Assembly (NCBI RefSeq): GCF_035046485.1
Contig: NC_085136.1
Span: 156,422,452 to 156,486,451 of the forward strand
Source: Aedes albopictus
Taxonomy: Eukaryota; Arthropoda; Insecta; Diptera; Culicidae
Length of the DNA: 64,000 bases
Direction of reading: 5' to 3'
The notes beneath the pieces are model-generated. The model did no database searches. It saw only the letters and a list, made by a program, of their open reading frames with translations, and was not told the DNA's origin. Positions 3,791 to 36,504 of the stretch are shown here, piece by piece. Every line of letters begins with the position of its first letter. The stretch's first letter is position 1. Position numbers and translations under genes: made by a program.

Positions 3791-3793
3791 TTA
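3791..3793. other. Possible left target-site duplication (TTA)
   Basis: TTA directly before CACTGCTCGACA. The same triplet follows the opposite element end at 26422-26424. Three bases match by chance fairly often, so this is only supportive. Confidence 0.35.
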
Positions 3794-4235
3794 CACTGCT
3801 CGACAAAAAATGAGAAAAGTTCACGCTATGGAATGAAATTAAAAGTAACAGGGGTTTGGGACCCCAGAAGTGTCATAGTGAAGGAATTTTTGAAAAATAA
3901 TGGACCGCGGCCCCACAGTTCAAAACCGAAATTTGTATGGGGAACTAGGGGTGTTCATTTCTGTAGGACAATCCTTAACCAGCCGGGACTTTGTGGCTTC
4001 AAATGGCTCGTTCTCCGAAACTAGGCCACCAAATTACAATCGGTTTGAAGCATCATCAAGGGGAAGAGTATATCTAAAGAATGATATGGTGGGGATCCCC
4101 CCTGACCCTCCCCCTTTTTGCTGCGGGCGGATCTAAGTGTGACATGATACATAATTTTCGCACATCATAATAATTTCGACTGGAAACAGTGTTTTTGAAT
4201 CGCTGTTAGTGACAAATCATTATATAAATGTTGTT
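3794..4235 (+). repeat. Left terminal inverted repeat, non-satellite part
   Basis: About 440 bp matching 25985-26421 in reverse complement. A 78-codon frame within it (3900-4136) encodes a peptide identical to one in the opposite arm. This is a sign of nucleotide near-identity rather than of coding. The outermost 25 bp match only loosely, with about 10 bp extra in this arm. From GTTCACGCTATGG inward the match is almost exact. Confidence 0.8.
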
Positions 4236-6580
4236 CCGGACCTGATGAGGCCATTTGGTTGGCACGGGTTATCCGGTGGCCACGGAACAGGTTCTGGGGA
4301 CCACAGGGTCTCAGGCGGAAATGGCCAATTTTTTATTTCAAAAGAACACCATCATGCGACAACTCAAAATTTGCAAAATTCCGTGTGTAATCCAATAGAA
4401 CCAAAAATTATAGATTTACCCAATGCTGGACACCCGGTGGCCATGGAACAGGTTCAGGGGACCCCAGGGTATCTGGCAGAAATGGTCAATTTTCGATGAT
4501 AAAAGAACCCCATCATGCGACACCTCAAAATTTGCATAATTCCGTGTGTAATCCAGTAGAACCAAAAATTATAGTTTAACCCAATGCTGGGCCCCCGGTG
4601 GACACGGAACAAGTTCTGGGGACCACAGGGTCTCCGACAGAAATGGCCAATTTTTGATTCCAAAATAACCCCATCATGCGACACCTCAAAATTTGCACAA
4701 TTCCGTGTGTAGTCTAGAAGAACCAAAAATTTTAGTTTTACCCAACGCTGGGCACCCGGAGGCCACGGAACAGGTTCAGGGGACCCCAGGGTATCTGGCA
4801 GAAATGGTCAATTTTCGATGATGAAAGAACCCCATCATGCGACACCTCAAAATTTGCATAATTCCGTGTGTAATCCAATAGAACCAAAAATTATAGATTT
4901 ACCCAATGCTGGACACCCGGTGGCCATGAAACAGGTTCAGGGGACCCCAGGGTATCTGGCAGAAATGGTCAATTTTTGATGATAAAAGAACCCCATCATG
5001 CGACACCTCAAAATTTGCATAATTCCGTGTGTAATCCAGTAGAACCAAAAATTATAGTTTTACCCAATGCTGGGTAAATGCCCCCCCCCCCCCGGTGGAC
5101 ACGGAACAAGTTCTGGGGACCACAGGGTCTCCGACAGAAATGGCCAATTTTTGATTCCAAAATAACCCCATCATGCGACACCTCAAAATTTGCACAATTC
5201 CGTGTGTAGTCTAGTAGAACCAGAAATTATAGTTTTACCCAACGCTGGGCACCCGGAGGCCACGGAACAGGTTCAGGGGACCCCAGGGTAACTGGCAGAA
5301 ATGGTCAATTTTCGATGATGAAAGAACCCCATCATGCGACACCTCAAAATTTGCACAATTCCGTGTGTAATCCAATAGAACCAAAAATTATAGATTTACC
5401 CAATGCTGGACACCCGGTGGCCACGGAACAGGTTCAGGGGACCCCAGGGTATCTGGCAGAAATGGTCAATTTTCGATGATAAAAGAACCCCGTCATGCGA
5501 CACCTCAAAATTTGCATAATTCCGTGTGTAATCCAGTAGAACCAAAAATTATTGTTCTACCCAATGCTGGGCACCCGGTGGCCACGGAACAGGTTCAGGG
5601 GACCACAGGGTATCTGACAGAAATGGTCAATTTTCGATGGTGAAAGAGCCCCATCATGCGACACCTCAAAATTTGCACAATTCCGTGTGTAATCCAATAG
5701 AACCAAAAACTATAGTTTTACCCAATGCTGGGCACCCGGTGGACACGGAACAAGTTCTGGGGACCACAGGGTCTCCGACAGAAATGGCCAATTTTTGATT
5801 CCAAAAGAATCCCATCATGCGACACCTCAAAATTTGCACAATTCCGTGTGTAGTCTAGTAGAACCAGAAATTATAGTTTTACCCAACGCTGGGCACCCGG
5901 AGGCCACGGAACAGGTTCAGGGGACCCCAGGGTAACTGGCAGAAATGGTCAATTTTCGATGATGAAAGAACCCCATCATGCGACACCTCAAAATTTGCAC
6001 AATTCCGTGTGTAATCCAATAGAACCAAAAATTATAGATTTACCCAATGCTGGACACCCGGTGGCCACGGAACAGGTTCAGGGGACCCCAGGGTATCTGG
6101 CAGAAATGGTCAATTTTCGATGATAAAAGAACCCCGTCATGCGACACCTCAAAATTTGCATAATTCCGTGTGTAATCCAGTAGAACCAAAAATTATTGTT
6201 CTACCCAATGCTGGGCACCCGGTGGCCACGGAACAGGTTCAGGGGACCACAGGGTATCTGACAGAAATGGTCAATTTTCGATGGTGAAAGAGCCCCATCA
6301 TGCGACACCTCAAAATTTGCACAATTCCGTGTGTAATCCAATAGAACCAAAAACTATAGTTTTACCCAATGCTGGGCACCCGGTGGACACGGAACAAGTT
6401 CTGGGGACCACAGGGTCTCCGACAGAAATGGCCAATTTTTGATTCCAAAAGAATCCCATCATGCGACACCTCAAAATTTGCACAATTCCGTGTGTAGTCT
6501 AGTAAAACCAGAAATTATAGTTTTACCCAACGCTGGGCACCCGGAGGCCACGGAACTCCACAGGATCTCTGGCAGAAATG
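4236..6580 (+). repeat. Left-arm 161-bp satellite array (four-monomer higher-order repeat inside)
   Basis: Fourteen tandem copies of a 161-bp unit, recognisable by CTCAAAATTTGCA at about 160-161-bp spacing. Four monomer types can be told apart by their variable part: GGACACGGAACAAGTTCTGG, GGAGGCCACGG with GGTAACTGG, GGTGGCCACGG with GGTATCTGG, and a variant with GGTATCTGACAG. From about 5220 to 6510 these occur as a four-monomer block of about 643 bp repeated twice. A C-run insertion (5080-5093) lengthens one unit by about 15 bp. The array ends abruptly in a truncated unit. Confidence 0.9.
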
Positions 6581-6916
6581 TCTTGTCCCTTGTGATTAAG
6601 GGTTAAAACAAGCTTATCAACTTTCCACTTTAATTTAGTTGTCTCTCAACCGATTCTTCTTTTTTCAAGTATGCAATTTAAATAGTATCTGGGATTGTAA
6701 GTATAATGAAATTGAATTCTACCTTATATTTTTAAGATCTATTTTCAGAAAATACTGTATCTTCCTATAAATATTTTAAAATCAGTATGCCTTCAAGAAA
6801 AGCATCTCCCGGATACATCATAGTATATGAACAGTCTTCTTGAATTTATCCTCAAGGTGTATTCGCTTCTTTTAAGTTTTTAAAAAACATAAAATAAATT
6901 CACAAAATACCGTATC

Positions 6917-6955
<39 letters not shown>

Positions 6956-8277
6956 TCAAAAGTTGGAATTTATATACGAGAAGTTCATTGGAACGTCACC
7001 ACAAACACCAAACACGCCAAACGGAATCCTCTCTAAAATGTATTCAAGATCTAAATATTCATTCTAAGCTTTAAAGTTTCATGTAACAAAACTCTGATTT
7101 TCTGTGAGAAAATCTACGGAAGATCAAGTGTGTAAGTGTTTGCATTGTCCACTTAGAATCCGTACGCGCTGCATATTTTCTAGTGACACGCTTAGTTTAC
7201 TCATAAACTATTCCTCTTTTAATGGTGAAAATTTCACCGGTTTTCGTACAACGAATCAAAAGATATACCAGAATGAAAATAAGACGAACAAAAAAATCTA
7301 GCACAAACGCCTTGAAAATTCAACATTTTCAAGCGCGACTATAGCAAAAAGCTTAAATATCGCCAAAACTATCATTTGTTACGCGCTCAAATGTTATTGA
7401 TCATGACATGAGAAGATGTCCCCTGCCGATTGGAGTTCGTGTTCATGGAGAAATTTACTACGAATATCATGGCATGGCGGGTAGTCCTCCTTTGGACACC
7501 GTTTTAGTAACAACATGATGATCAACTCAAAATTGTACAAGATCTAAAGCCTCAGAAATCACTAGCAATTTTTAAAACACCGCAAAGGACCAAAGAAGAT
7601 TTGGCTTGGATTCGAAAGTTGTCACTACAGTCGAAAGATTTTCAGAGGCAACGCAAAAATTGAGTAGTGTTTTTCAAAATAACTCTTTCATAGTCTCCAA
7701 TATACTACATCCATTCAAACGCCCCCATTTCCATAACTGAAAAAAATACTGGTCAAAACGATTAGGAATCTAAGAAAGACAGGAAAACCGACTCCGGACA
7801 CTGCACTATAAAATATGTTTCCAAAAAAGCTTGATACTACAAATTTTACAGTTAGACAACTTTTGAAGGAAGTTTACATTAGTAAAATTAAAAAATAAAA
7901 GTAATAATTTTAATGATATTTTTTCATGAAGGCGCTCTAAAATATGCATGTTTTGAAAGGTTGACATTTTCACAAGCCAGTTTATTCCAGAGATATTCGT
8001 GATTCCGTGTGTACGGATTCTAAATGGACATGATTTATGTTAAGGAGCATCCATTTAGTACGTCATGCACAATTTAGGACTTTTAGCCACTCTCCCCCAT
8101 TCGTGCGAGGTTTTCGTATATTTGATATATTTTCCGAGCCCACCCTCCCCCTTATAAGCGTGACGTACTTTATGGATCCCCCCTTTCTTCTTCTATTTCC
8201 TTCCATTACTAATATCATCACTAAATGTGCTGCGATTGTTTCCTACGACGGATGTCACACAATTATGCAGCAATAAT
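6581..8277. other. AT-rich interior of the giant element, no gene seen
   Basis: No frame here has family resemblance. It holds a 34-bp TA microsatellite at 6920-6953 and otherwise AT-rich sequence with scattered stops. A frame at 8037-8276 has no recognisable motif. Confidence 0.5.
6920..6953. repeat. (TA)n microsatellite
   Basis: Uninterrupted TA dinucleotides, about 17 units. Confidence 0.9.
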
Positions 8278-8279
8278 TA

Positions 8280-8417
8280 CCGTAAAACTGGGTAACATTG
8301 ATTAGCGGTGTAACTCACCTTGATTTTTGTCGTGGAATGTTCAAGATTTGATTTTTCCTGAAGAATAGTCAAGGTGATCAAAGGTTCCCCGCTGATCAAT
8401 GTTACCCCGTTTTACGG
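8280..8417. mobile_element. Palindromic MITE with TA target duplication
   Basis: Terminal inverted repeats of about 30 bp: CCGTAAAACTGGGTAACATT at the left, and the reverse complement of AATGTTACCCCGTTTTACGG at the right. TA flanks both ends (8278-8279 and 8418-8419). Only 138 bp and non-coding. TA duplication is typical of Tc1/mariner-type mobilisation. Confidence 0.75.
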
Positions 8418-8463
8418 TACTTCTCCCTATCAAGAATTCGATATAGATGGTAGAGAATAATGC

Positions 8464-8757
8464 GATAGGGTAGGTGTTCCAATATTCGCTGCCCCCAAGC
8501 AATTCTTATGGAGGGTGGTGAATACTGGAGCAGGAGTGGCAATACTGATTTATGGAGCTAAAATTTTATGAAAACTTTTTTATTCTTAATTTTTTTGAGT
8601 AAACTTAAAGCATCCAAAGCATCCAGCGTTTTCATATCATTTGGATGTGTTTTACTTTACAAAAAAATCATTCATATCGATCTATACAGCGAAAGGCTGA
8701 ATAATACAGGGTGGCGAATACTGCTACATGGCGAATTCTCGAACACCAACCCTATAT
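8464..8757. mobile_element. Possible MITE with ATAGGGTNGGTGTTC ends
   Basis: The left end reads ATAGGGTAGGTGTTC, and the right end is the reverse complement of a close variant (GAACACCAACCCTAT). Internal segments with GAATACTG also recur. A weak 124-codon frame (8568-8942) overlaps it and has no recognisable motif. No clear target duplication. Confidence 0.35.
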
Positions 8758-8759
8758 GG

Positions 8760-10600
8760 AATCATGCGATAGTGTGTGATAATGGCTTACGAGTAGATCA
8801 ACAATGCAACACCGCACTGCCTAGTGCTATTCGAATCTTTGTCTCAGTCGGACTCGTGGTCGTGATTCTTCGCGCCGATAACAAAGTTACGGTTGTTTTT
8901 ATTTCACAGTGCAAAAAATACGCGAATATTTTAAAGTTTTGATCATTTTCTTTAACATTAAATTAATTCAAGCGTGTCGATATCATAAAAAGTTTATTTT
9001 TTACAGAAAAAGATACAATTATTTTTAAAAGCTTAATCTCGGTTTATTTCTACCGAGATTTAGACAGCCGAACAGTACTCCGAAAGAATGAAAATGTTAC
9101 TGGACATGGCCAACTTTCATCTAAAGAAAATAATTTTTGTCTAAAACAAAATTCCGTTGTAAACTTTTAAAACTCAAATATGGTTTTGTTGCATTTGATA
9201 CTTTGGGCTGTTTGGTTGATGCTCAGGAACCAATGATAAAATTTTGTTTACTTTCGATAGCCTAAAAAATGTTGCGCAGTGTTTGTTATGAATTATTTTG
9301 GCTGATTACTTCTAATATTCCATGTCGTTTTAGCTGTTCTAAGTGCGTCGCTAATATAAAAAGTATTCGAAAAGAACGCTGAAATCAAACGTTGAACACA
9401 AAACGTTACTGCGTCCGAATAAAAAAACAGATATTTTTTTAATTGATTTCTAGTTCAAAAAAATTGTGTTTTAATAGTGAATTGTACAAAACAACATAAA
9501 AACACAATGCATGCCTGGTTTGGAATCTAGGAACAGATAGAAAATACTAAAATTTCTTACAAAACAACATTTTTGCACATTTTTCCAAACCTGCTTTTCA
9601 GAAACAACTCGAGAATTAAAATTCGAATTGTTATGACTTACAGAATACCATTTAAATCCAATCAGCAACTGAAGTTCTACATTTTAAGACTGAATTATTA
9701 AACACAAAAAAGTAGATTTATCACCCCACTTACGATTTGATTTGTTTTTATTGTTAAGTAAAGTTAAGTAAACCAGTTTATATAAGAAAAAAGCTTTTAT
9801 ATGGATTGTATCGTAAAATAATTAGCAATGTTTATGACGTTATATCTCAACACTGAATTAAATAAGTCTTTTTATTTCGGTTCTACTAGCAAATCTTTAC
9901 GATTTAGTTAAATATGAGTCCAACATTTCTTTATTTTAGAATCTTAAGTATTATTGAAGTATGGATAGATTAATGCATGTCACAAAATAAAAATCTGATC
10001 AAAATTCGGTTTCTTAAAATATTTCCTCGCAATTAAATAGTTTGTAGCGAGTAAAATTTGTAATGAAAAAAATGTGGAAAAAACATCTTGTTGGGGATTA
10101 CGCACACTTTATATATTACATAACACCGGTTTTCGAAATAGATATTTTCTATACAAAAAACATCATCAACTTATTATCGGACTGTAAAAAAAGCGTAAAT
10201 TTAGTTCTTTGCTATAACTACTCCTCTATTATGTACATCGAATAATAAAAAAAGGTTTTTTCGCTTTGTATAATTTTAATTGACATCAACGTGATTAGAT
10301 GGAACACCATCAAACTGAATACCTGAAAAATGCGTTATTTTCAGTGATTCGAAATACTTTAAAATTCAGAGGAAATTGTCCTTGGTGATCGTGAGAATTG
10401 TACCTATGTATGTATTTGCTTAATGAGCCGGATTTTTGTTTTTTCTTATACTTGCTTCCACATTTTTTTTGCAAATTAATTTTTTTGTGCCGAATTTTTA
10501 AAACATGTGTTTAGTTTTCGAGCAAAGCTCAAGTAAAATGACTATTTCTAGAAAGTTGCAGTTCGATTTCTTTTTCAATGATTTATACTATATTTCTAAA
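8760..10600. other. AT-rich stretch, no feature
   Basis: Strongly AT-rich with homopolymer runs and only short frames. There is a short hairpin at about 9035-9063 (AATCTCGG and CCGAGATT). I see no gene, RNA or element end. Confidence 0.4.
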
Positions 10601-10606
10601 CATCAA

Positions 10607-10740
10607 ATTACTATTTTTGGGTATTTGGCATCTCAGTCTGATTTGGTCAATCAAAAACAACTATATGTTTTCTTAGTCCGACGTTTCGGTTCTTAAGGTC
10701 CAATAAATCAGACTGAGATGCCAAAAACCCAAAAATATTA
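10607..10740. repeat. Inverted repeat / small palindromic element
   Basis: The segment from about 10610 (TTTTTGGGTATTTGGCATCT, then CAGTCTGATT) returns as its reverse complement at 10705-10738. The arms are about 35 bp around a loop of about 60 bp. Confidence 0.6.
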
Positions 10741-10762
10741 TCCAACGTACAGTCGATCATCC

Positions 10763-10889
10763 AGTTAACCGTTCAGCTATCGCGCGATCAGCCGTCCTCT
10801 GCAGCACCGCGCTGTTGCTGTGTACAACGAACGAGCTTTTTTAAGCGAGTTTTACACAATACAACAGCGCGATCAGCGAAAGGTTAAAC
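10763..10889. repeat. Imperfect palindrome upstream of the gene
   Basis: The left part has GTTAACCGTTCAG, CGCGCGATCAGC and CGCTGTTG. The right part has CAACAGCGCGATCAGC and GGTTAAAC, in inverted order. Probably a short MITE. It lies about 200 bp upstream of the start codon at 11086, so an effect on expression is possible but unsupported. Confidence 0.45.
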
Positions 10890-11085
10890 ATCAAATTACT
10901 TGTATGTTGAACCTAATCTTTTGAAGCCGTTTTCATCATTGCTAATAACTTTTCGATACAGTCCTTATACGAATGCTTTGCTCGGCAAAATTACAGTTTC
11001 TGTTTCTGAATCAGTAGTTGTACTTGAGTTCAAGTGTGCTTAGTAATAAGAATCCAAAGTGCCTAGAACTGAAATACAAAAAAAA

Positions 11086-11293
11086 ATGTCATCGACCGAA
11101 TGTCTCCACTCACCTGACTCATTTTGCTACGTCTGTGGAGAGTTTATAAGCTCCCGTGTGAAAAAGTGTTCAATTTCTGATGGAGCTAAATTAAGACAAG
11201 CATACCAAGAATATTTTGGCCTGGAAATCAAAAACCAAGACAAATATTGGGTTCCACATTTCGTTTGTCAGAGTTGTGCTGTTGGATTGCTTA
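11086..11293 (+). CDS. Exon 1: first zinc-binding domain
   Basis: Encodes residues 1-69 plus one base. It contains FCYVCG and WVPHFVCQSC, a treble-clef-like CxxC...CxxC arrangement. The donor is GTAGGT at 11294. A second possible GT at 11298 would give the wrong phase for the next exon. Confidence 0.7.
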
Positions 11294-14200
11294 GTAGGTT
11301 TTAGATAAATTGACAATTTTATTAGTAACAATATTTCAAACGCGCGTAATTTGTTGGAGTTCTGATAAACCGAACTATTTGCCATTTTGAATAATTTCCA
11401 CTGTTTTTATCCGTAAATTGCCGGAAAACAATTTCCGTATGTGTTGTGGGTACGAATTTCTTCTACAGAATGTTAGTAATATAGTTCACAATTAATTGGG
11501 ATGAACAACTTTCTTATCAGTTAGGTCTAGTATGTTTGCCACCATCGATGGTTTTCATATGGTAAATAGTTCGGTTTAGCAGAACCCTGACCAATTGCTT
11601 TTGAAAACAACTCTATTTTAAAGCCGTAGGTCGTACTTTAGCCCTACTATACAATTCACTATTTGAAAAGTAGAGATGCTTTCAGCCATCTAAATAATGA
11701 ATTTATTTAAAAATTCTTTCTACTAGAATTAGTATAAACCTCTTTTATATAGTGGCTATGGATTTTAGGTAGGACTGAAATACGACTTGACAGAAAAGGC
11801 CGTCTTCAAAAGCAATTATGCCCTGTTGAAATTTTGATACCGCATTTGAGCTTTCTAGCTTATTTTTCAATAGAAACAAAAAAAAATATAATATGTTTTC
11901 TCTTCAAAGAACCAGCAAAAGATAGATCAGCAAGGTTGAAATTTGACAGGCCAAGAATTTGGAGTCAGCCAACTAGCCATCAAAATGACTGTTATTTTTG
12001 TTTGGCAAAAATCTTTCGCGGGAGGAACTTAAATATTTATCCAAATATTCCTTCATCACAAGCTCCAACCCTGTATGCTGGACCAAGCGGATCTGGTCTA
12101 AGTCGCACAAATGTCTCTGCAACTGGTGATGCTCGAAGGGTTTCAACTTCAGATATGGAAGAACAACAAGTGGCAGCAGCTGAACAGATCGTCGATCATA
12201 CTTCAGAAAACGTTGCATCAAGTGTTAATCAGAAATTACGGCCTGTTGACAATGGCAAACCAGAGGTAAATTACTAAATGTGCTTGAAAAGCTTTAGCTA
12301 AATTTCTGTTCACTTTTTCAGATGCTTTGGCGATCTGATGACTGCAATCATCATCCAGATGATTTTTGTTACATTTGTGGTTACTTTATTACCAGGACAA
12401 CAACCAAACATACATTGCGAAAAGATACCAAGTTATATGAAGCATACAAGCAATATTTCAACATCGAAGTCGAACATCAAGATAAACAGTGGGTGCCACA
12501 TTATGCCTGTCATAATTGCACAAGACGGTTGCATGGTACAGTATTTAATTTAGAATGATTTTTTTATCTATACAATACTGCCATTCTAAGCGTATCTGTA
12601 CCATGTTGTTTTTCAACGAGGTTGACCCATTCGCTCTAACAAAAACAATATTTTAAAATCAATGTCAGAAAGATACATAACGTTATTGTGCTATATTAAG
12701 CTATGAAACCTGATGAAAACAAAAATCCAATTAATTTTAAATGGCTTTGTAACTGAGAAAAATGCTACTTGCATTGAATTCAACATAGTTCAGATATGCT
12801 TAAAAGGGCAGAATAGACGTTCTATAACTTATTCATATGTTTACGTTTTACTGCTTTTTCTAACAAATGGTTGTGTCAGAAATCTGTTTTTATTTCACTC
12901 GAAAAATTTCTGGTATTTGAACCAAAAACAAAACAGTAGTTGGGTCTATGATGATGAATGGACCAATTTCGTTGATTCCAACACTTAGTCATAATAGAAG
13001 CCTCTTTTATATATAAAGTAGCCAATTTTATACAGCCAAGTTGTGATTCGCTGAAAGCTTTACTCATCTAATTTTCAAAAAACGACATAGAAGCATGAAA
13101 TAACTAGCACATTTATTTTATAAATTAACTTTTATGAGCAAAAGATTCTGATCTTGGTGGACCATTGCTGCTTATGGTTGGACCAAATAAATGATCATGG
13201 ATGAACCAACGAAACATGAAGACATTTTTTCGACTAACCTTTTCTTATTCCTTGTGAATCGCAGCGAAAATTGGACTTCAGGTCAGCATTGTCGTTCCGA
13301 AACGAATCGGTGTTGCAAGAAGTGATAACCAATTAATGTACGAGGCTTTCGGTTGGCCAAACGATCGGTAGCGGGCCGCAGATACCGCGCACGGAATCCG
13401 GATATGATATTAAAATGATGAAACTTCGGGAGCCTCGGTGTACTGGGCGAATTTCAGGACGAGCAGCTATCCATACGGTCGGGGCGCGATGGCAAAGGCT
13501 CTGTTATTTGATATAATGTACGTAGAGATCAAATATTTGCAATTTCAAAACTCTTCCACTTCATTTTGAGACCGACGAACGTTTTGAAATTGACATCGCG
13601 CGCAAAGAAAACTGTAAACAAACTAAGCCGGACCTAGTAACCAACGGTGTAATGGTTTGGTCCAACCAAGATTACACCGTTTCGGTATTTTCATAAATAA
13701 ACTGCATTCAAAAATATTTCGGGGAAACGGTCCATTCGGGGAAACGGTTCATTCGGGGAATCGTTTTTCGAGGGAAAAACTTTCGGAGAAACTTCTTTCG
13801 GGGTACTGGTTTTCGGACAAATTTCGGTCAACCGCCAAAGAAGGTTAGATATTTTTGCAATAGAATAACGAAAAAAGATCAGGAAATGAAAAAGAATTTC
13901 TATGTTCTCGATGCTACAAACTGAGCATTTTTGGTGCTCCACTAGGGCTTCTAGAAAGCCTTTCTAAAACCATTAATAATTTAAATATTTGGCGGTAATT
14001 TAATTAAAACCGATGTGATTTCAATGAAGAAAGAGTCATATTTTGTCATTAGTGAGAGTGTAGTTTGAGTTTTTAAGAAAACAATACATTATTTTGGGTT
14101 TTCAAAATTGGTCCAACCATGATCAGTTTTTGGACTGGCCCATTCATCATCATCTACCCTACTTCTAATGTATTTTCCAACAATACCACAAAGAAGTCAA

Positions 14201-17200: not shown

Positions 17201-18755
17201 CAAACAAATTTCAGGTTGGTACCAAGGAGAAAACAGATTAATGGAATTTGCTGTGCCTCGGATTTGGCATTCACCTTCAAATCATCAAACCGACTGTTAT
17301 TTTTGTGTTGTGAATTTGGCTAGTGGTCAAAAAAAGTCAACTTACCCTGATATCCCTTCATCACGTGCGCCAATTCCACATTCCGCTGAACGCCCCATAC
17401 CTCAACGTACCTGTGAAACGGCTGTTAGTACCACTACAATATCGACAGTTAGTGGAAGTTCTGTCCCAAGTAGTGAGTCTTTACAACTTCAAGGAGGAGT
17501 GCTCAATATTCCACATTATCCGAATCAAACGGAAATAAATGATTTGATTCGTGACCTTGCACTCCCTAAAAACAAAAGCGAATTATTGTTATCTAGGCTG
17601 AAGCAATGGAGTTTGCTGGATGAATCCGTCAGAATAACATCCCAGAGAACTCGCGATGAAGAGTTTTCCTCCTATTACACCAGCGAAGATGGAATTTGCT
17701 TTTGTAGAGATATCGAGGGTGGGTATTTCTATCTATTCGGATGACAACAGCATCAAAACGAAGAAAACTGTATCTCTTTTTTTGCAGGTCTATTTTCTGA
17801 AATCGGCATTCCATTGATTGTAAGAGACTGGCGGCTCTTTATTGATGGCTCTTCAAAAAGTTTGAAGGTTGTGCTACTGCACAACCGCGTAAAAAGCGAG
17901 CAGTACCCATCTCTACCCATTGCACACTCCATTCTCCTGAAAGAAAGTTATGCCACAACAAAATTGTTATTCAACAAAATTCAGTATGAAAAATTTGGTT
18001 GGGAGGTAATAGGCGACTTTAAAATGATTGGTTTCCTAATTGGATTACAAGGAGGGTATACTAAATTCCCTTGTTTCCTGTGCCTGTGGGACAGCAGAGA
18101 CACAGAGAACCACTATAAAATTAAAAATTGGGAAATCAGAGCCCAATACAAAATCGGCGAAAAAAATGTTAAAAACGATCCAGTAGTGAACATGGAAAAA
18201 ATTTTAATGCCACCTCTTCATATAAAACTTGGTTTGATTAAGCAATTCGTGAAAGCATTGAATAAGGATTCGGAATCATTTAAGTTTATAACAAAACTGT
18301 TTCCGAAACTTTCCGAGGCAAAAATAACTGCCGGTGTTTTTACAGGACCACAAGTAAAAAAACTTATAAAATCGGAATCGTTTCCGAAATTATTGAATGA
18401 GAAAGAAAAGGCAGCCTGGAAAAGCTTTCGAGATATAGTTCAAGGATTTTTAGGGAATAATCGTGATCCAAGATATGAGGCCATAGTACATGAACTGATG
18501 AAAAATTTTGAAACCATGGGGTGTCGAATGTCACTAAAGGTGCACATTCTTCATTCTCATTTGGATAAATTTAAAGAAAATATGGGTGTATACTCAGAGG
18601 AACAAGGCGAACGTTTTCATCAAGATATAAAACATATGGAGCAACGATATCAGTGCCAAGCAACATCGAAAATGATGGGTGATTATGTGTGGAGTCTCAT
18701 GCGAGACACAACAACGGAGTATACGCGTCAACCTATTTCGAAATTGCATTTTTAA
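11086..18755 (+). CDS. DDE/RNase H-like transposase-type protein with duplicated zinc-binding N-terminal module (five exons)
   Basis: The coding model joins 11086-11293, 11910-12265, 12322-12535, 17215-17718 and 17788-18755. The phases agree at every junction and the total is 2250 nt, giving 749 residues and a TAA stop. The start is the ATG after an A-run, since the same frame upstream has only a GTG and then stops. Residues 14-64 hold CxxC...HxxCxxC (C14, C17, H58, C61, C64), and residues 84-100 hold PRIW...H...DCYFC. This whole module repeats at C204-C254 and 274-290. The C-terminal part has the motifs DWRLFIDGSSKSLK (D447), GDF (D504), PCFLC...H (523-536) and EEQGERFHQD (E702), which fit an RNase H-fold DDE catalytic core with an insertion. 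I know this as an abundant uncharacterised family in insects and cnidarians. The transposase role is inferred from motifs and from the inverted repeats around it. AATAAA follows at 18781. No frameshift or stop was found. Confidence 0.75.
11584..11832. mobile_element. MITE-like inverted repeat inside intron 1
   Basis: CAATTGCTTTTGAAAACA near the left end pairs with TCTTCAAAAGCAATTATG near the right end, and the inner arms (CGTACTTTAGCCCTAC and GTAGGACTGAAATACG) also pair imperfectly. About 250 bp, non-coding, wholly inside the 616-bp intron (11294-11909). Confidence 0.55.
11910..12265 (+). CDS. Exon 2: second half of module 1 and linker
   Basis: Starts after the acceptor CTTCAAAG. An alternative acceptor six bases on (ACCAG) keeps phase and would drop two residues. 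It carries PRIWSQPTSHQNDCYFC and YPNIPSSQAP, then a Ser/Thr/Gln-rich linker that is probably unstructured. It ends in phase 0 at GAG before the donor GTAAAT. Confidence 0.7.
12322..12535 (+). CDS. Exon 3: duplicated zinc-binding domain
   Basis: Follows a 56-bp intron (12266-12321) ending TTTTTCAG. FCYICGYF and WVPHYACHNC parallel exon 1 closely, including the shared spacing from the first CxxC to the WVPH motif. It ends one base into a Gly codon at the donor GTACAG, where a 4.68-kb intron begins. Confidence 0.72.
12934..14160. repeat. Long, weakly paired inverted repeat in intron 3
   Basis: GGGTCTATGATGATGAATGG at the left is mirrored by the reverse complement of CCCATTCATCATCATCTACCC at the right. 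GGTTGGACCAAA (about 13180) is mirrored by TTGGTCCAACC (14107). Inside are a GC-richer unknown piece (13260-13510) and a short run of TTCGGGGAAACGG-like units (13730-13830). Probably a decayed foldback element. Confidence 0.4.
14669..16822. mobile_element. 2.15-kb foldback element with ACAT target duplication, in intron 3
   Basis: The ends GGGTCATTCCATACCAAATC and (reverse complement) GATTTGACATGGAATGACCC form inverted repeats. These extend, diverged, for about 440 bp on each side and share internal blocks such as CTCGGAGAT, GATAAAAAG and CAGATTCTAC. ACAT lies directly outside both ends (14665-14668 and 16823-16826). The core (about 15110-16385) is AT-rich and I recognise no transposase in it, so it is probably non-autonomous. 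Confidence 0.7.
17215..17718 (+). CDS. Exon 4: second module end, linker and start of the core domain
   Basis: Begins after AAATTTCAG and completes a Gly codon with exon 3. It contains PRIWHSPSNHQTDCYFC and YPDIPSSRAP, matching exon 2, then a Ser/Thr-rich linker. A leucine-rich stretch (LPKNKSELLLSRLKQWSLL) follows, and the exon ends at CFCRDIEG. The donor is GTGGGT at 17719. Confidence 0.75.
17788..18755 (+). CDS. Exon 5: DDE-like catalytic domain
   Basis: Follows a 69-bp intron. It carries both aspartate motifs, the CxxC...H motif between the second Asp and the helical insertion, and the GERFHQD glutamate motif. Asp-to-Asp spacing is 57 residues and Asp-to-Glu 198, consistent with an insertion-bearing DDE fold. 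It ends in LHF and TAA. The frame is fully open, the best single piece of coding evidence in the window. Confidence 0.82.
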
Positions 18756-18780
18756 GTATATTATAGTATGTTATTTTTCA

Positions 18781-18786
18781 AATAAA
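18781..18786 (+). promoter_or_regulatory. Polyadenylation signal AATAAA
   Basis: Canonical hexamer 26 bp after the stop codon of the five-exon gene, followed by AT-rich sequence. Confidence 0.5.
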
Positions 18787-18876
18787 AATGTGTGCAAAAT
18801 GTGTATATTCGAAATATATTTCCTAAAATGTCTCATTCGCATCCAAATAGCTACATTACTGGGAAGAAATCACTTA

Positions 18877-18878
<2 letters not shown>

Positions 18879-18916
<38 letters not shown>

Positions 18917-18947
18917 GCCAAGGGCTGAAAATCTCGATAATAAAGAA

Positions 18948-18990
<43 letters not shown>
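18879..18990. repeat. Two TA microsatellite tracts
   Basis: TA runs at about 18879-18915 and 18957-18990, separated by about 40 bp. The second abuts the end of a palindromic MITE. Confidence 0.85.
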
Positions 18991-19914
18991 CAGGGGGTAG
19001 ACAAAATGTTTGAGATAGGCAAATTTTATTCGTCTCAAAAAATTTTCAATGAGCTATAACTTTTTGGTTATTATGGTTCATCAAAAATTCTCAAATTTTC
19101 ACTGCGATTTGTCCCAGCTAAACTATAATTTGTACAAAATTGGGCTTTGCCGGCTAACCCTACATTAAGTTAGAGCAATTTCAGCAAAATGCTTCTTTTC
19201 TGAGAGCTATTTTTAAAAGTGTTATATCTCAGGGTATAGTTAACGTAATTTAACGAAACTTTGAACATTCATTATTAATATCTTGATCTTTGAAAAACAT
19301 TTGACTCAACTGAATTTTTTACACAAGAAGGAAAGTTAAAGCGATTGAAATATTTTTTTCAATATATACAACCAAAGCAAAATTTTTGACATCGTATGAA
19401 AATTTATGAAAGTGATTTTTGTTTACTTGAAAAGCCTCCAATACATCTTAATATAAATATATTTGAAACGTAAGTAACAAAACGGCCATCCATAATATAG
19501 AAAAGGTAATGCAAATATGTCAAAATCGTATAATGTTTAGAAATTCTCACTTGAAAATTAAATCCGCTTTAACTTTCTTTCTTATAAAAAAAATTCAGAT
19601 AAGTCAAATGTTTTTCAAAGACCAATAAATTAGTAATGAATGTTCAAAATTTCGTTAAATTACGTTAACTGTACCTTGAGATATAACACTTTTAAAAACA
19701 GCTCTCAGAAAAGAAGCATTTTGCTGAAATTGCTCTTACTCAATGTAGGGTTAACCAACAAAACCCAAACCTGTACAAATTATAGTTTACTAGCTGGACA
19801 AATTGCAGTGAAAATTTGAGAATTTTTGATAAACTACGCAAAAAGTTACAGTTCATTGAACATTATTTGAGACAAAAAAATTTTGCCTATCCCAAACATT
19901 TTGTCTACCCCCTG
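18991..19914. mobile_element. 0.92-kb palindromic MITE with CAGGGGGTAGACAAAATG ends (copy 1)
   Basis: Left end CAGGGGGTAGACAAAATG, and the right end is its reverse complement (CATTTTGTCTACCCCCTG). The inverted arms extend several hundred bp on each side, for example around CTCAAATTTTCACTGC. Both ends lie in TA tracts, consistent with a TA target. No coding capacity. Confidence 0.8.

Positions 19915-19999
<85 letters not shown>
19915..19999. repeat. (TA)n microsatellite
   Basis: About 80 bp of nearly pure TA next to the MITE. Frames of alternating Ile/Tyr here are artefacts. Confidence 0.9.
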
Positions 20000-20003
<4 letters not shown>

Positions 20004-20384
20004 TTGGACACCGTCTAAGATATTCCTATCAAACAGTGAATATTGCTTCTTATTCTATTCTTAAATATAGTTTTGCTAATACTAAAATCATACATATAAT
20101 AATCACAATTAAATAAGGCCGGAACAAATATCATTTTCTTCTTTTGTCACTTTGCTGTTTGACTCGTCAAGGGGGGGACAATAATAAATAAATGGATTTT
20201 GTGAGAAAATACCCGAACAATTAGGCAAAATCACAAAACTCATCGGATTTGTTAAGGAATTTTGTGAGTAGCCCAGATTTCGTAAAAAAAAATTTCATTT
20301 TCGTTAAAATTTTATTTTTGCCCCCCTCTCAAAAATGTGAAATCTGGTCAAAATTTTGCGAGGGGGGGGGGGGGGGTGACATTA

Positions 20385-20775
20385 GAAGAAATGGAAATTT
20401 GTTCCAGCCTAATCGACAACATTCTACAAACGGGTTAAAAAAGCTCCTATGGCCGTCATTTGGTAATCTTAAAAAATCATGCTCTCTCAATGTCCTGGAT
20501 GGAGCATGAATGTTCAGCATTGCCAATAGAGGACTACATTCTATATTTCCTTGCAGCAAATCAAAAATAAATAATATACGTAACATTTCACTTCTTTCGC
20601 TCAAAGTTTCTAGATTGATCAGCCTACATCTGTTTGCATAAGGCGGTAAGCCAATGGAATCATTCCAGGTAGAGATCGCATCGCATATCTAATGAATCTT
20701 CTTTGGACACTTTCGAGTATAATTTGTCTAGGAGCCCAAATTTGAATGGCATATTCCAATATACTTCTAACTAGG
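20385..20775 (-). pseudogene. Jockey-type non-LTR retrotransposon, reverse transcriptase C-terminal fragment
   Basis: Minus-strand translation from about 20775 gives LVRSILEYAIQIWAPRQIIL and then VQRRFIRYAMRSLPGM, the region after the RT catalytic motifs in jockey-clade elements. Several in-frame stops and probable frameshifts follow. The 5' side is cut off at a TA tract. It lies inside the giant element, so it is a later insertion or an old passenger. Confidence 0.6.
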
Positions 20776-20776
20776 G

Positions 20777-20787
20777 ATATATATATA

Positions 20788-20830
<43 letters not shown>

Positions 20831-20850
20831 TTATTTATTTATTTATCTAG
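20777..20850. repeat. TA / TATT simple repeat
   Basis: TA dinucleotides followed by a few TTTA units, directly at the truncated end of the jockey fragment. Confidence 0.8.
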
Positions 20851-22707
20851 ATCTCTATAGGAATAAGGAAGTTAAAGGAGAATTGTTAAAAAAATTTTTA
20901 CGAACAATCTTGGATCTTTAAAGAAACTATGATGAAATTCCTGTAAACATCAATGAAAAAACATAGAATAGAGGTATCATGAAATACTTTTTTGGTATAA
21001 CCGGTAGAAGCAATGCGTGAATGGTTCTCTGGAATAATATCGAATGTTTCATCTCGGAAGAACTTTAGAATAAAATAGAGAAGTTCCATGCAAAAAATCG
21101 ACAACTGTTACAGGATTCCATGAACTAAAGAAACCCTAAAGGGGGATATCTGGATGAATTTATGAAAGATATTCTGGAGTTTCTAATCAAGTAGTTTTTG
21201 AAGGGCCTTTCAATGTAATGAAGAGAAACTCTGGCGTTTAGTGTAATGTGATTGGTTTCAATTACTGTTTTCAGAAAAATGATACTGTCGCTAATCGCCT
21301 GGCGACCCAAGCCCCCGGTTTGTTTCCCGGACTTTGTGCACTTCTCGGTGATTGCAAAGGCAGCGAAGAAAGACCTTCGAATCCAGGCAGAGTTCATGGT
21401 CGAACAACCAACGAAAATATAATATTTGTGAGGTTCATTGTAAAAATACGGTATTGTGTGATAAACCTTTTTTCAGGAAACAAAAAATTTAAAACCATCT
21501 GCACACATTTCCCACATTTTCAGAATATCAGACTAATATTCATATGAACTTCCGAGCTTTATGAAGAATTAATTAAAATGCGGTAGTTTATTGGATTTGT
21601 TTACCTTAGATCAAAAATAAAGATTTTTATGATACGGTAAAGAGTGCATATGAGTTAGTTTTGAGAAACACATTTTTTACGATTGATTTGAACTTACGGA
21701 ATTACGTGAATTTGTTTCATGAAAATTCGAAGTTTTGATCATAAATATAGATTATAAAAATATTTTGAATAAGCTTGTGTAGTTTGTTAATTATCATACG
21801 AATATTGCGAATTTGTTTCATAAAACAGATAGATTTTGATAATATTTTGTTTTGAGGTTGGTCTTCTTAGGAATTCCTCATAGAAAACCAGATTTTGTAA
21901 ATTTGTTTGGAATTTCTGAATAGCAATTCATGAAGCTTAAGGTAACATGCTGTGCCATTGAACTTTAATACAAATCAATGATTTTTATGCTTGTTTCTAA
22001 TAGTTTGCCTCGCATTTTTGAAATAGTAAAAAAAACGGTTAATTCGGCATTCACGTTGCTGAAAAAGTATCATCATACCAAGTTAGCATATAGAATGGTA
22101 CTCCAACCCAATATTTGCAACAGGTTTGTAAGAACAATATGTTTTGCTTTCTTGTACTCGTAGATGAGGTTCATACGTTAGCATACCACAAAATTTAACG
22201 GGATTTTTAGCAGAGACTGAAATGTATCAGAAAGACGAGAAAACATTTTCCATGGTAATTTTTGTTCAAATTGCAAGCCAGTAACGTCTCCTACTGAATT
22301 ACCTAAACCTCTTTTTACGTCCATCATTGGCTGATTGATAAAAAATCTGTCGCTAATAGAATAGGCAAACTCAAAACTTATACATTTCTTTGACACATCT
22401 ACATATTCAAGAGAAGTGTTAAAACATATAAAAGTTTTGTTAAAACAAGCCATTGTTTTAATGGCAGAATTTTGTATCGTTCAGCCAATGATGAACGTAT
22501 AAAAAGGTGAAAGTATACTTATTGAACTTCCCGTAAAAATAGAAAGAGAAAATCGATGAAAAGAAATCGATCATTGCAGACACGTCGTTATGAAACTTAA
22601 CGCGAGATATATATTTGGAGCTTAGATTGATATTCCTAAGAATTTCTCACAGAAAACCAAATATTTAAAAATTTCTTCGAGAGATATGGAATTTTTTCTT
22701 TTCTGCT
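20851..22707. other. AT-rich interior with two unexplained frames
   Basis: Contains a GC-richer, exon-like piece at about 21277-21428. It also holds a minus-strand 91-codon frame at 22178-22453, beginning MACFNKTFICFN, whose frame continues with stops to about 21980. Neither matches a family I recognise. The rest is AT-rich. Confidence 0.4.
21277..21428 (+). other. Exon-like open segment of unknown identity
   Basis: Preceded by TGTTTTCAG (acceptor-like) and followed by GTGAGG (donor-like), with about 150 bp open in one frame and GC content well above its surroundings. A second frame gives a 48-codon reading from an ATG. I do not recognise either product. It could be a captured exon, or chance. 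Confidence 0.2.
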
Positions 22708-25700
22708 TGAGACCCTGTGGTCCCCAGAACTTGTTCCGTGTCCACCGGGTGCCCAGCATTGGGTGAAACTATAATTTTTGGTTCTATTGGATTACACACG
22801 GAATTGTGCAAATTTTGAGGTGTCGCAGGTTCTTTTATCATAGAAAATTGAGCTGTTGGAAATTGTAGACTAATTTCCTTCCGTGCCTAATGAGTTCCGA
22901 GTTCCCTTTAACCATCTAAATGTACGGAGTCAGTTGAAATTACGAGAACATGTAGTGTAAGAGTTTAATGTAACGAACTACAGTATTAGAAGGGTTAGGA
23001 GAGCCGCGTCTCGGAGAATTCAGGCATGAGAGTATAATGTAAGTAATAAGCTAAGTAAAATGTGAATTATTGAAATAAAATACCAATTCTTTGCAGTCTC
23101 GAAACCGTTAGCTGCTGTCGAGAGGTTTGATTACATTCCGAGAAAGTTGCGTCCCTAACATGACCATTTCTGCCAGATACCCTGTGGTCCCCTGAACCTG
23201 TTCCGTGGCCACCGGGTGCCCAGCATTGGGTAAAACTATAATTTTTGGTTCTATTGGATTACACACGGAATTATGCAAATTTTGAGGTGTCGCATGATGG
23301 GGTTCTTTCATCATCGAAAATTGACCATTTCTGCCAGATACCCTGGGGTCCCCTGAACCTGTTCCGTGGCCTCCGGGTGCCCAGCGTTGGGTAAAACTAA
23401 AATTTTTGGTTCTACTAGACTACACACGGAATTGTGCAAATTTTGAGGTGTCGCATGATGGGGTTATTTTGGAATCAAAAATTGGCCATTTCTGTCGGAG
23501 ACCCTGTGGTCCTCAGAACTTGTTCCGTGTCCACCGGGTGCCCAGCATTGGGTAAAACTATAATTTTTGGTTCTATTGGATTACACACGGAATTATGCAA
23601 ATTTTGAGGTGTCGCATGATGGGGTTCTTTTATCATCGAAAATTTACCATTTCTGCCAGATACCCTGGGGTCCCCTGAACCTGTTCCATGGCCACCGGGT
23701 GTCCAGCATTGGGTAAATCTATAATTTTTGGTTCTATTGGATTACACACGGAATTATGCAAATTTTGAGGTGTCGCATGATGGGGTTCTTTTATCATCGA
23801 AAATTGACCATTTCTGCCAGATACCCTGGGGTCCCCTGAACCTGTTCCATGGCCACCGGGTGTCCAGCATTGGGTAAATCTATAATTTTTGGTTCTATTG
23901 GATTACACACGGAATTATGCAAATTTTGAGGTGTCGCATGATGGGGTTCTTTCATCATCGAAAATTGACCATTTCTGCCAGATACCCTGGGGTCCCCTGA
24001 ACCTGTTCCGTGGCCTCCGGGTGCCCAGCGTTGGGTAAAACTAAAATTTTTGGTTCTTCTAGACTACACACGGAATTGTGCAAATTTTGAGGTGTCGCAT
24101 GATGGGGTTATTTTGGAATCAAAAATTGGCCATTTCTGTCGGAGACCCTGTGGTCCCCAGAACTTGTTCCGTGTCCACCGGGTGCCCAGCATTGGGTAAA
24201 ACTATAATTTTTGGTTCTACTGGATTACACACGGAATTATGCAAATTTTGAGGTGTCGCATGATGGGGTTCTTTTATCATCGAAAATTGACCATTTCTGC
24301 CAGATACCCTGGGGTCCCCTGAACCTGTTTCATGGCCACCGGGTGTCCAGCATTGGGTAAATCTATAATTTTTGGTTCTATTGGATTACACACGGAATTA
24401 TGCAAATTTTGAGGTGTCGCATGATGGGGTTCTTTCATCATCGAAAATTGACCATTTCTGCCAGATACCCTGGGGTCCCCTGAACCTGTTCCGTGGCCTC
24501 CGGGTGCCCAGCGTTGGGTAAAACTAAAATTTTTGGTTCTTCTAGACTACACACGGAATTGTGCAAATTTTGAGGTGTCGCATGATGGGGTTATTTTGGA
24601 ATCAAAAATTGGCCATTTCTGTCGGAGACCCTGTGGTCCCCAGAACTTGTTCCGTGTCCACCGGGTGCCCAGCATTGGGTAAAACTATAATTTTTGGTTC
24701 TACTGGATTACACACGGAATTATGCAAATTTTGAGGTGTCGCATGATGGGGTTCTTTTATCATCGAAAATTGACCATTTCTGCCAGATACCCTGGGGTCC
24801 CCTGAACCTGTTTCATGGCCACCGGGTGTCCAGCATTGGGTAAATCTATAATTTTTGGTTCTATTGGATTACACACGGAATTATGCAAATTTTGAGGTGT
24901 CGCATGATGGGGTTCTTTCATCATCGAAAATTGACCATTTCTGCCAGATACCCTGGGGTCCCCTGAACCTGTTCCGTGGCCTCCGGGTGCCCAGCGTTGG
25001 GTAAAACTAAAATTTTTGGTTCTACTAGACTACACACGGAATTGTGCAAATTTTGAGGTGTCGCATGATGGGGTTATTTTGGAATCAAAAATTGGCCATT
25101 TCTGTCGGAGACCCTGTGGTCCCCAGAACTTGTTCCGTGTCCACCGGGTGCCCAGCATTGGGTAAAACTATAATTTTTGGTTCTACTGGATTACACACGG
25201 AATTATGCAAATTTTGAGGTGTCGCATGATGGGGTTCTTTTATCATCAAAAATTGACCATTTCTGCCAGATACCCTGGGGTCCCCTGAACCTGTTTCATG
25301 GCCACCGGGTGTCCAGCATTGGGTAAATCTATAATTTTTGGTTCTATTGGATTACACACGGAATTATGCAAATTTTGAGGTGTCGCATGATGGGGTTCTT
25401 TCATCATCGAAAATTGACCATTTCTGCCAGATACCCTGGGGTCCCCTGAACCTGTTCCGTGGCCTCCGGGTGCCCAGCGTTGGGTAAAACTAAAATTTTT
25501 GGTTCTTCTAGACTACACACGGAATTGTGCAAATTTTGAGGTGTCGCATGATGGGGCTATTTTGGAATCAAAAATTGGCCATTTCTGTCGGAGACCCTGT
25601 GGTCCCCAGAACTTGTTCCGTGTCCACCGGGGGCCCAGCATTGGGTTAAACTATAATTTTTGGTTCTACTGGATTACACACGGAATTATGCAAATTTTGA

Positions 25701-25984
25701 GGTGTCGCATGATGGGGTTCTTTTATCATCGAAAATTGACCATTTCTGCCAGATACCCTGGGGTCCCCTGAACCTGTTCCATGGCCACCGGGTGTCCAGC
25801 ATTGGGTAAATCTATAATTTTTGGTTCTATTGGATTACACACGGAATTTTGCAAATTTTGAGTTGTCGCATGATGGTGTTCTTTTGAAATAAAAAATTGG
25901 CCATTTCCGCCTGAGACCCTGTGGTCCCCAGAACCTGTTCCGTGGCCACCGGATAACCCGTGCCAACCAAATGGCCTCATCAGG
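22708..25984 (-). repeat. Right-arm 161-bp satellite array (three-monomer higher-order repeat inside)
   Basis: About nineteen units of the same satellite as the left arm, inverted. Between about 23980 and 25480 the variants recur as a three-monomer block of about 482 bp: GGCCTCCGGGTGCCCAGCG appears near 24011, 24494, 24977 and 25459. The outer eight or so units match the left arm unit for unit. The inner order differs. The array is interrupted by a solo LTR. Confidence 0.9.
22854..23160. mobile_element. Probable solo LTR inserted in the satellite
   Basis: About 307 bp of unrelated sequence interrupts a satellite unit. It begins TGTTGG and ends CCTAACA, an imperfect short inverted repeat of LTR type (TG...CA). 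It carries AATAAA about 85 bp before its end. The satellite resumes immediately after. A clean target duplication is not visible (TTGA/GC on the left, TGAC on the right). Confidence 0.6.
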
Positions 25985-26421
25985 TCCGGAACAACATTTA
26001 TATAATGATTTGTCACTAACAGCGATTCAAAAACACTGTTTCCAGTCGAAATTATTATGATGTGCGAAAATTATGTATCATGTCACACTTAGATCCGCCC
26101 GCAGCAAAAAGGGGGAGGGTCAGGGGGGATCCCCACCATATCATTCTTTAGATATACTCTTCCCCTTGATGATGCTTCAAACCGATTGTAATTTGGTGGC
26201 CTAGTTTCGGAGAACGAGCCATTTGAAGCCACAAAGTCCCGGCTGGTTAAGGATTGTCCTACAGAAATGAACACCCCTAGTTCCCCATACAAATTTCGGT
26301 TTTGAACTGTGGGGCCGCGGTCCATTATTTTTCAAAAATTCCTTCACTATGACACTTCTGGGGTCCCAAACCCCTGTTACTTTTAATTTCATCCCATAGC
26401 GTGAACCACTGTTGAACGGTG
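25985..26421 (-). repeat. Right terminal inverted repeat, non-satellite part
   Basis: Reverse complement of 3794-4235. The only differences seen are in the outermost 25 bp and a single A/G change at the GCTATGG/CCATAGC position. Near-identity of the two ends argues for recent movement or for gene conversion. Confidence 0.8.
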
Positions 26422-27892
26422 TTATATTAAATCTAGCATCTATTGCTAAGAATTGATGTATAAGAGCAATATCCAATTCTGTTGATTACGTTTGAAAAAG
26501 TCAATGATCGCAAATGATGAAAAAACTGGAATAATCATAATTTCATCTGATTAAAGCCACCTAATAAAATCGATAACGACTTAGATTCCATAGCAAACCA
26601 GCTTGGACAGTAAACGGCGCAGGCAGTGAAAGAATCGTTTTCTTCCCGAGATTATCGCGAGACTTAACGCTGATTAACGGTGCACTTGAAACTAGCCGCT
26701 AATGTGCGAATGTTATAAATCTCAAAAGTTCCATTTCAAAATCACTCCGACCGGCGGCTTGCCGACGTTCCGCAAGCTGTTTGTATTTTAATCGCTTCAT
26801 TTATGTCCTCGAGGCAGTCCCGGCACCTTAACAAGGTGATAAATTTCCCAAATATCTCCGTTGAATTGGAACGGAGCACTCGCCTCTCCATTCTTAGAAG
26901 TGTAATAAATTACGATGACCCCGGCCGAGCACTTAGGATTGTGCCTAAATACCTTGCACTACTGGGGCGAAGGGCCGCTCCGGCGGCTATGCTGGACAGA
27001 GGGCAGGGGGACGAAGAGAAATGATTCAATTAATTTCCCATCTTTATTTTGAAATTCATTTAGCTTTATTATTATTTCTAGCTTTATTTCGACCGGTTAC
27101 GTCTTGAGTGGAAAATCGGACAAAATGAACCAGAAAAAAATTGCTTAAAACAACGTCCAACAACCGGCGAGAATGAAAAGAAATGACCTCTGATTCGGGA
27201 TGCCCCGTGCAAGGCCATAACCGTAAGGTGCGAGAAACCAGGGAAAAAAGAGTCCGGGTTAAATTAAGATATCTTGCCTCATCGCATGGTGTCCTCTTGG
27301 TTGGCAGCTGTCCTGGACCGACCCGGGCCCGGGCACTCCGAAAGCGTATACTTTATTCAATTTGATTTTTATTTCGGTGCAACGGCAGCAACGCAGCAGC
27401 ATCCTAAGAGAAACACAAAAAAAACGACAAGGAGGAACCATTTTCCTTCGTCTTTATTTCTTTGAGATGATACCGAAAACCTAGCATCTTCTTTTGGCTT
27501 CCCAAATGTTTACACATATATTCACCCCAAGTCGGCTCGTTTGGCTCATTCGCTCTGGTTAAGCATCATTTCACTACCTCTCGCCGGCGCGGTGACGACG
27601 CCGCCGTGCTGCTGTGACTCCACACTGCAGTGCAACCCGGTATGAATGATGGGGAAAAGTGTGAAAGGTTCAAGAGATGATTGTGGCATCAAATGTGTAG
27701 ATGTTTTGTTTTGATATCCAGATTTGATCTGTTTTATTACCCGTGTGGTTTAATACTTATAATCGTAATTATGTACACGAAAAGTCGTATATTGACAATA
27801 ACAGTATCATATACGTACAATATTGTACACAATGATAGATTGCTAAGTATTCATTGCGCACACTTTTGTGTGGATTCAATCGCATTTTCATG
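26422..27892. other. Unique, partly GC-richer sequence, no gene assigned
   Basis: 26580-27650 has balanced composition with GC-rich pockets (for example 26930-27010 and 27290-27350), and short frames occur in all directions. None has a recognisable domain. It may be intronic or regulatory sequence of a gene outside the window. Confidence 0.4.

Positions 27893-33059: not shown

Positions 33060-36504
<3,445 letters not shown>

Follow-up and report, generated by a model that had tools for sequence, protein, structure and literature searches.

A giant, probably autonomous Chapaev3-group transposon of Aedes albopictus with satellite-bearing inverted arms and a core found in both orientations

What kind of sequence fills the space between two near-identical inverted ends lying about 22.6 kb apart in the genome of the mosquito Aedes albopictus? 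The question arises from a 64,000-nucleotide stretch of contig NC_085136.1 (positions 156,422,452 to 156,486,451), here called the window, in which an initial annotation had noted such ends, 161-bp satellite arrays in both arms and an open five-exon DDE-like gene between them, and had read the whole as a single, possibly autonomous element carrying its own satellite. We conclude with high confidence that the sequence is a giant and probably autonomous DNA transposon of the cut-and-paste type, belonging to the Chapaev3 group, with a core that occurs in both orientations between the arms. The element spans 3794..26421, with CACTG at its left tip, GGTG at its right tip, and an identical TTA duplication on either side (3791..3793 and 26422..26424). 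The arms are complementary over 1256 nt at 100% (rounded; 3819-5074 against 25151-26406), further satellite matches between them reach up to 1468 nt at 90-94%, and a comparison of the outside flanks (3.8 kb against 4.6 kb) gave no inverted copies beyond the two tips and no other mutual similarity at E 1e-3.

The same structure recurs throughout the genome. A search with the first 442 bases of the element, in which the best 40 of 1337 candidates were scored, returned 17 left ends, 16 inverted right ends and seven diverged matches. This corresponds to at least 17 copies, 16 of them paired as the initial annotation had led one to expect, and one (E14) consisting of a left end that is cut off by a gap of 500 N. 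Of the 16 pairs, thirteen measure 19.9-24.8 kb, and the shorter ones are E16 (16.9 kb), E6 (12.9 kb) and E17 (5.3 kb); the copy in the window is E2, and E1 is G000 C1:75848822-75873665. All 15 pairs with both tips readable (the right tip of E12 is damaged) have CAC...GTG termini and identical 3-bp flanks, namely TAA in six, TTA in four, and CAA, AAA, TAG, TAT and ATA in one each, preceded by A in 14 cases and followed by T in 14. The only departure at the left tip of E6 is CACCG in place of CACTG.

Insertion is also supported by paralogous sites that lack the element. Each of the 15 copies had its two flanks joined and aligned to the window and the loci read; two gave a match across the junction. 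For E5, a paralogous site in locus L035 is 86% identical across the junction and has one 3-bp unit where the copy has two; for E10, three matches in L037 and L040 (84-89%) cross the junction but extend just 25 bp leftward, and E6 was matched on either side but not across. The near-identity of the copies across 20 kb might also be expected if a single locus had undergone segmental duplication instead of transposition, but the identity ends at the tips, and with duplications around every readable pair and empty paralogous sites for two copies we regard this explanation as negligible.

The sequence between the arms belongs to the element. A 4.5-kb core piece (7000-11500) has matches of at least 99% only within elements, whole or partial in 15 of the 17 copies (among the best 40 of 3378 candidates), the other matches being short and 69-76% identical. 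Likewise, the terminal 440 bp are not a repeat that always occurs without the gene, as 15 of the 16 pairs enclose the last exon of the transposase gene, whole or broken. This exon (321 aa) is found in 14 full-length copies at 100% identity, 13 of them chromosomal and within elements and one on a small contig; it is in two pieces in E10 and E16, and was not found in E17. Among seven copies, 19 of the 21 pairwise core comparisons give 4-11 substitutions over 13.5-15.1 kb, and the remaining two give 20 and 34, probably through alignment in repeats. Such low divergence indicates that the spread was recent. Dispersed copies, duplications, empty paralogous sites and a private core thus bear out the view of a single, possibly autonomous element.

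The gene predicted within the core comprises five exons on the plus strand: exon 1 (11086..11293), coding for a first zinc domain and ending at a putative donor GTAGGT; exon 2 (11910..12265), with a putative acceptor TCTCTTCAAAG and a 3' junction that agrees with the protein P0001; exon 3 (12322..12535), with a second zinc domain that gives the best zf-AD match; exon 4 (17215..17718); and exon 5 (17788..18755), which holds the catalytic core (D, D, C(2)C, LH, H(4)H, E) and the stop codon. The splice model yields a protein of 749 aa without internal stop, 561 aa of which come from exon 3 on, so that the gene is open as first proposed. P0001 (LOC115265503), from the same species, agrees at the joins of exons 2, 3, 4 and 5, starts in exon 2, and has a C-terminus unlike that of the model; the join of exons 1 and 2 is therefore a prediction. 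In seven of the ten copies read (E1, E2, E3, E4, E5, E7 and E8) the full set of five exons is found, none with more than one mismatch, whereas E6 lacks exons 1-3, E14 has only exons 1-3 before its gap and E17 has none. We infer that the element is autonomous and active.

The two N-terminal zinc domains form a tandem duplication with 42% identity over 125 aa. In the full-length protein, zf-AD is the sole Pfam family above the cut-off (E 4.5e-09, 36.9 bits against a cut-off of 28, in two stretches), and scans exon by exon gave no zf-AD match. When the first zinc domain was used as query (residues 1-185), seven proteins of 533-566 aa were retrieved, with P0001 as the best; these are too short to hold two zinc domains plus the core, so that no other two-domain protein was seen among these gene predictions. 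The C(2)C, LH and H(4)H columns are invariant or at least 90% conserved in an alignment of 42 proteins that are 45-82% identical to P0004, a relative of the window protein. The predicted fold of P0004 is of the RAG1/Transib type, and two of the 42 relatives have a weak match to RAG1_imp_bd (E 0.23).

Diverged relatives of the transposase, 49-52% identical and some with long open frames, occur at C2:489795148, C3:445168485, C3:280167313 and C1:212230833. The 3 kb read around the first of these showed no recognisable ends, and among viral contigs, which were searched for relatives with readable ends, 46 pattern matches turned up, none of which was confirmed. Directly past the gene of the window lies an AT-rich palindromic insert (18879-20003) with two arms of about 470 bp that are about 85% alike, and which is perhaps a nested miniature inverted-repeat transposable element (MITE).

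Ends, target bias, the C(2)C/LH/H(4)H motifs and the predicted RAG1/Transib-type fold place the element in Chapaev3, within the CMCT clade, and not in Foldback, Galileo or Tnp2-type CACTA, the kinds of element that the initial annotation had cited for comparison. It shares with the Chapaev3 elements Garfield_BM, Merrow and Conan, as described in PMC4079192, the CAC...GTG ends, 3-bp duplications with a strong though not absolute bias to TWA between A and T, a transposase of about 560 aa (here the part from exon 3 on) with the same three motifs, and derived MITEs. It differs in size, being about 22 kb or some ten times as long as Garfield_BM (2,289 bp), and in having five exons, against two in Garfield and Merrow and one in most other Chapaev3 according to that account. 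The duplicated zinc domain, the satellite arms and the core flipped in two copies also set it apart from the elements described there. We take it for a Chapaev3 variant, not for a system of a new kind. The three culicine mosquitoes studied in PMC7728395, among which is Ae. albopictus, are reported to have Chapaev elements, so that a fragment or a consensus of this one may sit in a transposable element library; we found no description of it in the literature searched, which did not extend to Repbase and most subscription journals. It is a recently spread and apparently intact element from a RAG1-related clade, present in a vector mosquito.

Two other affiliations were weighed. CACT ends, a 3-bp duplication and subterminal repeats would also fit CACTA/EnSpm in the strict sense, and the C(2)C and H motifs are common to the entire CMCT clade according to PMC12730594. 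Yet no match to Transposase_21, the Tnp2 family, was seen in the full protein, in four open reading frames (ORFs) of the window or among the 25 families listed, of 28, for the 42 relatives, and the A/T-flanked target bias and the LH and H(4)H motifs correspond to Chapaev3 as described in PMC4079192, which makes strict CACTA membership very unlikely. Less likely still is a Foldback/Galileo-type element of the P superfamily. Long inverted arms with tandem repeats are indeed known in Galileo (PMC4168063) and Tetris (PMC4079207), but a P-type or THAP transposase had no Pfam match in the full 749-aa protein, none was found inside the element, and the predicted fold of P0004 is nearer to RAG1/Transib than to the P superfamily. 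Both memberships were dropped because transposase and target duplication disagree with them. ATon, abundant in Aedes aegypti, was likewise ruled out, since it inserts at AT dinucleotides (PMC3422177).

Several known elements resemble this one in architecture. In Tetris of Drosophila virilis, the inverted arms combine an outer domain with variable tandem repeats, whose 220-bp units also occur in satellite-like arrays; the element is described as apparently non-autonomous, its transposase not having been found (PMC4079207), while here the gene is internal and intact. Drosophila Galileo similarly has long, variable and repetitive inverted arms beside a transposase gene, but belongs to the P superfamily, and the nearly complete D. 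willistoni copy reported in PMC4168063 is 4,386 bp long. An oversized member of the same broad clade is provided by the enlarged CACTA elements of Chondrus crispus, 16-20 kb long and reported to carry 4-5 ORFs against the usual 1-2 (PMC6431247). By comparison, the extra length of the mosquito element consists of satellite arms, introns and a core without other recognised genes.

Several observations weigh against an autonomous Chapaev3 transposon. The placement was made from published descriptions and not from Repbase Chapaev3 sequences; zf-AD, the only Pfam family above the cut-off, is not specific to transposons; and the predicted fold belongs to P0004, which is 53% identical to the window protein, and not to that protein itself. 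The duplication is strictly TWA in just ten of the 15 pairs, while TWA was found in all Chapaev3 cases examined in PMC4079192. Moreover, not every copy is autonomous, given that parts of the core are missing from E6 and E17, exon 5 is broken in E10 and E16, exon 2 of E14 is gapped, and the 4.5-kb core piece was not found in E16. E6, which is outside the set of seven copies, is also more diverged, with 14 substitutions in 6.1 kb relative to E3.

If the element is a Chapaev3 transposon, what do its ends look like? They are near-identical, as the initial annotation had noted, but not mirror images: the outermost 26 bp on the left correspond to only 16 bp on the right. The left (L) terminus (3794..3819, plus strand) comprises the 12-bp tip CACTGCTCGACA and the outer 14 bp of a 20-bp spacer. 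Read inward, L is CACTGCTCGACA, 20 bp and CTATGG in 17 of 17 copies (one with CACCG), and the right (R) end is CACCGTTCAACA, 10 bp and CTATGG in all 15 readable copies. Inside these tips the arms are almost indistinguishable: in every one of the nine copies fully read, a comparison of left bases 27-480 with right bases 17-470 shows 1-2 differences among 454 positions.

The unequal spacers are shared by a family of MITEs of 426-438 bp, whose ends are 85% similar to those of the element. At least 609 MITE left-end matches occur genome-wide at no more than three mismatches (control 0). We read seven, five complete and two without R end; in each of the five complete ones the duplication is 3 bp long (TWA in four) and the spacers measure 20 and 10 bp. 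The MITEs differ from the element at about 8 of the 20 and 7 of the 10 spacer positions, and the lengths are unchanged. The retention of length in diverged sequences suggests that spacer length is under constraint; the plain alternative is common descent without selection.

One damaged copy may record how the ends are processed. In E12, the R end lacks its last 11 bp and has AATTA in their place, which creates a perfect 22-bp palindrome (ACCACTAATTA/TAATTAGTGGT) centred exactly at the start of a TAA equal to the left duplication. Such a structure, of which this is the single case, would result if a flank hairpin had been opened away from its centre and then rejoined by means of the 6-bp ACCACT. 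More generally, the 749-aa transposase may bind the unlike L and R ends and then cut, probably by way of a flank hairpin as in RAG1/Transib, with insertion at sites biased to A|TWA|T and a 3-bp duplication.

The transposase is distantly related to the enzyme behind antibody gene assembly, and these features invite comparison with RAG1, Transib and ProtoRAG, which according to PMC4411706, PMC8355894 and PMC8289069 share the transposase fold, CAC tips and ends unequal in spacer length. The N-terminal zinc domains, compared here by description, also recall the RAG1-linked 'Chapa' domain (PMC4411706). The differences are equally clear: the duplications are of 3 bp and AT-rich (15 of 15) rather than of 5 bp and GC-biased, the tips are CACYGYTCRACA rather than CACAGTG or CACTATG, and the spacers 20/10 rather than 12/23 or 27/31. 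No nonamer equivalent was identified. The comparison with 12/23 concerns spacer counts only, taken from this element and its MITEs. We put forward as a tentative and rather doubtful idea that this RAG1-fold lineage, with N-terminal zinc domains of the RAG1-linked kind, uses length-coded pairing, in which the end with the 20-bp spacer must join the end with the 10-bp spacer, one helical turn apart, with flank hairpin chemistry. If true, asymmetry of the 12/23 type would be shared more widely in the RAG1/Transib/Chapaev clade, and could be tested in this element, which is young, has intact copies and has kept the asymmetry at its tips while the remaining arms stayed almost identical. Whether RAG, ProtoRAG and Transib are alone in having spacer asymmetry and flank hairpins is a question for which the element is a natural test case.

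Where did the arms come from? The terminal inverted repeat proper (3794..3969, plus strand) is present in the 17 copies and, in the version about 85% similar, in the MITEs. It is followed in both arms by the head of a satellite-bearing dispersed repeat (3970..4272, plus strand, on the left), then by the left array (4273..6556, plus strand; 161-bp unit, 14.1 copies by Tandem Repeats Finder, TRF). On the other side, the right array is inverted (23161..25952, minus strand) and has 17.3 copies at period 161, although TRF fits a period of 483 (3 x 161) better, and head plus terminal inverted repeat form the R end (25953..26421, minus strand). By exact match to a 22-base stretch of the satellite, the left arm holds 4 to 21 units in ten copies and the right arm 8 to 19 in nine, that of E14 being lost in the gap. 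As unit numbers vary while the cores are nearly identical, the arrays must resize quickly, presumably through unequal exchange.

Arm bases 177-460 recur elsewhere at 82-86%. In the five that were read (L033-L037) of the seven diverged end matches, the similarity starts at the same point, TTAACCCTTAACC with small variations, the sequence ahead of it differs among all five loci, and 161-bp units follow the head in four. This shared start and the presence of the units outside the element point to a separate, older dispersed repeat with a head of 290 bp that bears the satellite. The arms accordingly seem to consist of a true terminal repeat of 176 bp to which a copy of this dispersed repeat has been attached; the long satellite arms would have been built from the latter, the capture having probably proceeded in that direction. 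The element therefore does carry satellite in its arms, as first proposed, but the satellite does not look like its own, as units and head also belong to the older repeat, whose end is different. A transposon that carries and resizes satellite DNA bears on how satellites disperse.

In L033-L037, the 161-bp units pass in places into a GAATTCCT-type minisatellite. A 311-bp sequence resembling a long terminal repeat (LTR) splits a satellite unit at the boundary between arm and core (22850..23160, plus strand); it is common to eight of the ten copies read, and was thus probably inserted before the spread.

The core of the window copy (6557..23160, plus strand) is inverted relative to most others. 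The orientation of gene and core with respect to the L and R ends is the same in 14 of the 16 orientable copies and opposite in E2 and E14: the unique core of E2 aligns to that of E3 only in reverse (99.88% over 13 kb), as does the readable part of E14. E2 has matched TTA duplications despite its flipped core, as expected if the flip occurred inside the element. Recombination between the arms would account for this, occasionally flipping the core while the ends remain unmoved. The flips might instead be assembly errors: the arms are long and almost identical, so that misassembly could mimic an inversion, and E14 contains the 500-N gap, both of which count against genuine flipping. However, the path from unique flank to unique core through an arm is about 3-4 kb, within the span of long reads (an argument from distance rather than from the reads themselves), and the left arrays of E2 and E14 differ, with 13 and 21 units by the exact 22-mer. 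We consider assembly error unlikely, though a serious alternative, and favour recombination between the arms. A core present in both orientations between inverted arms is in any case relevant to the possible misreading of large inverted-repeat elements in assemblies. In E1, about 2.6 kb of one core end is present a second time, inverted, beside the right arm, which creates a long internal palindrome.

ORFs of the window at 42138-42965 and 20329-20834, both on the minus strand, resemble by eye fragments of non-LTR reverse transcriptases; no Pfam family matched the two tested stretches at E 0.01, and a scan at this threshold of five window ORFs beyond the four mentioned above was negative. To the left of the element lie two arrays of a 23-bp GAATTCTT-type minisatellite (6-1530 and 2558-3611), mutually opposite by their consensus units, and to its right a near-perfect TG repeat extends over 286 bp (35523-35808).

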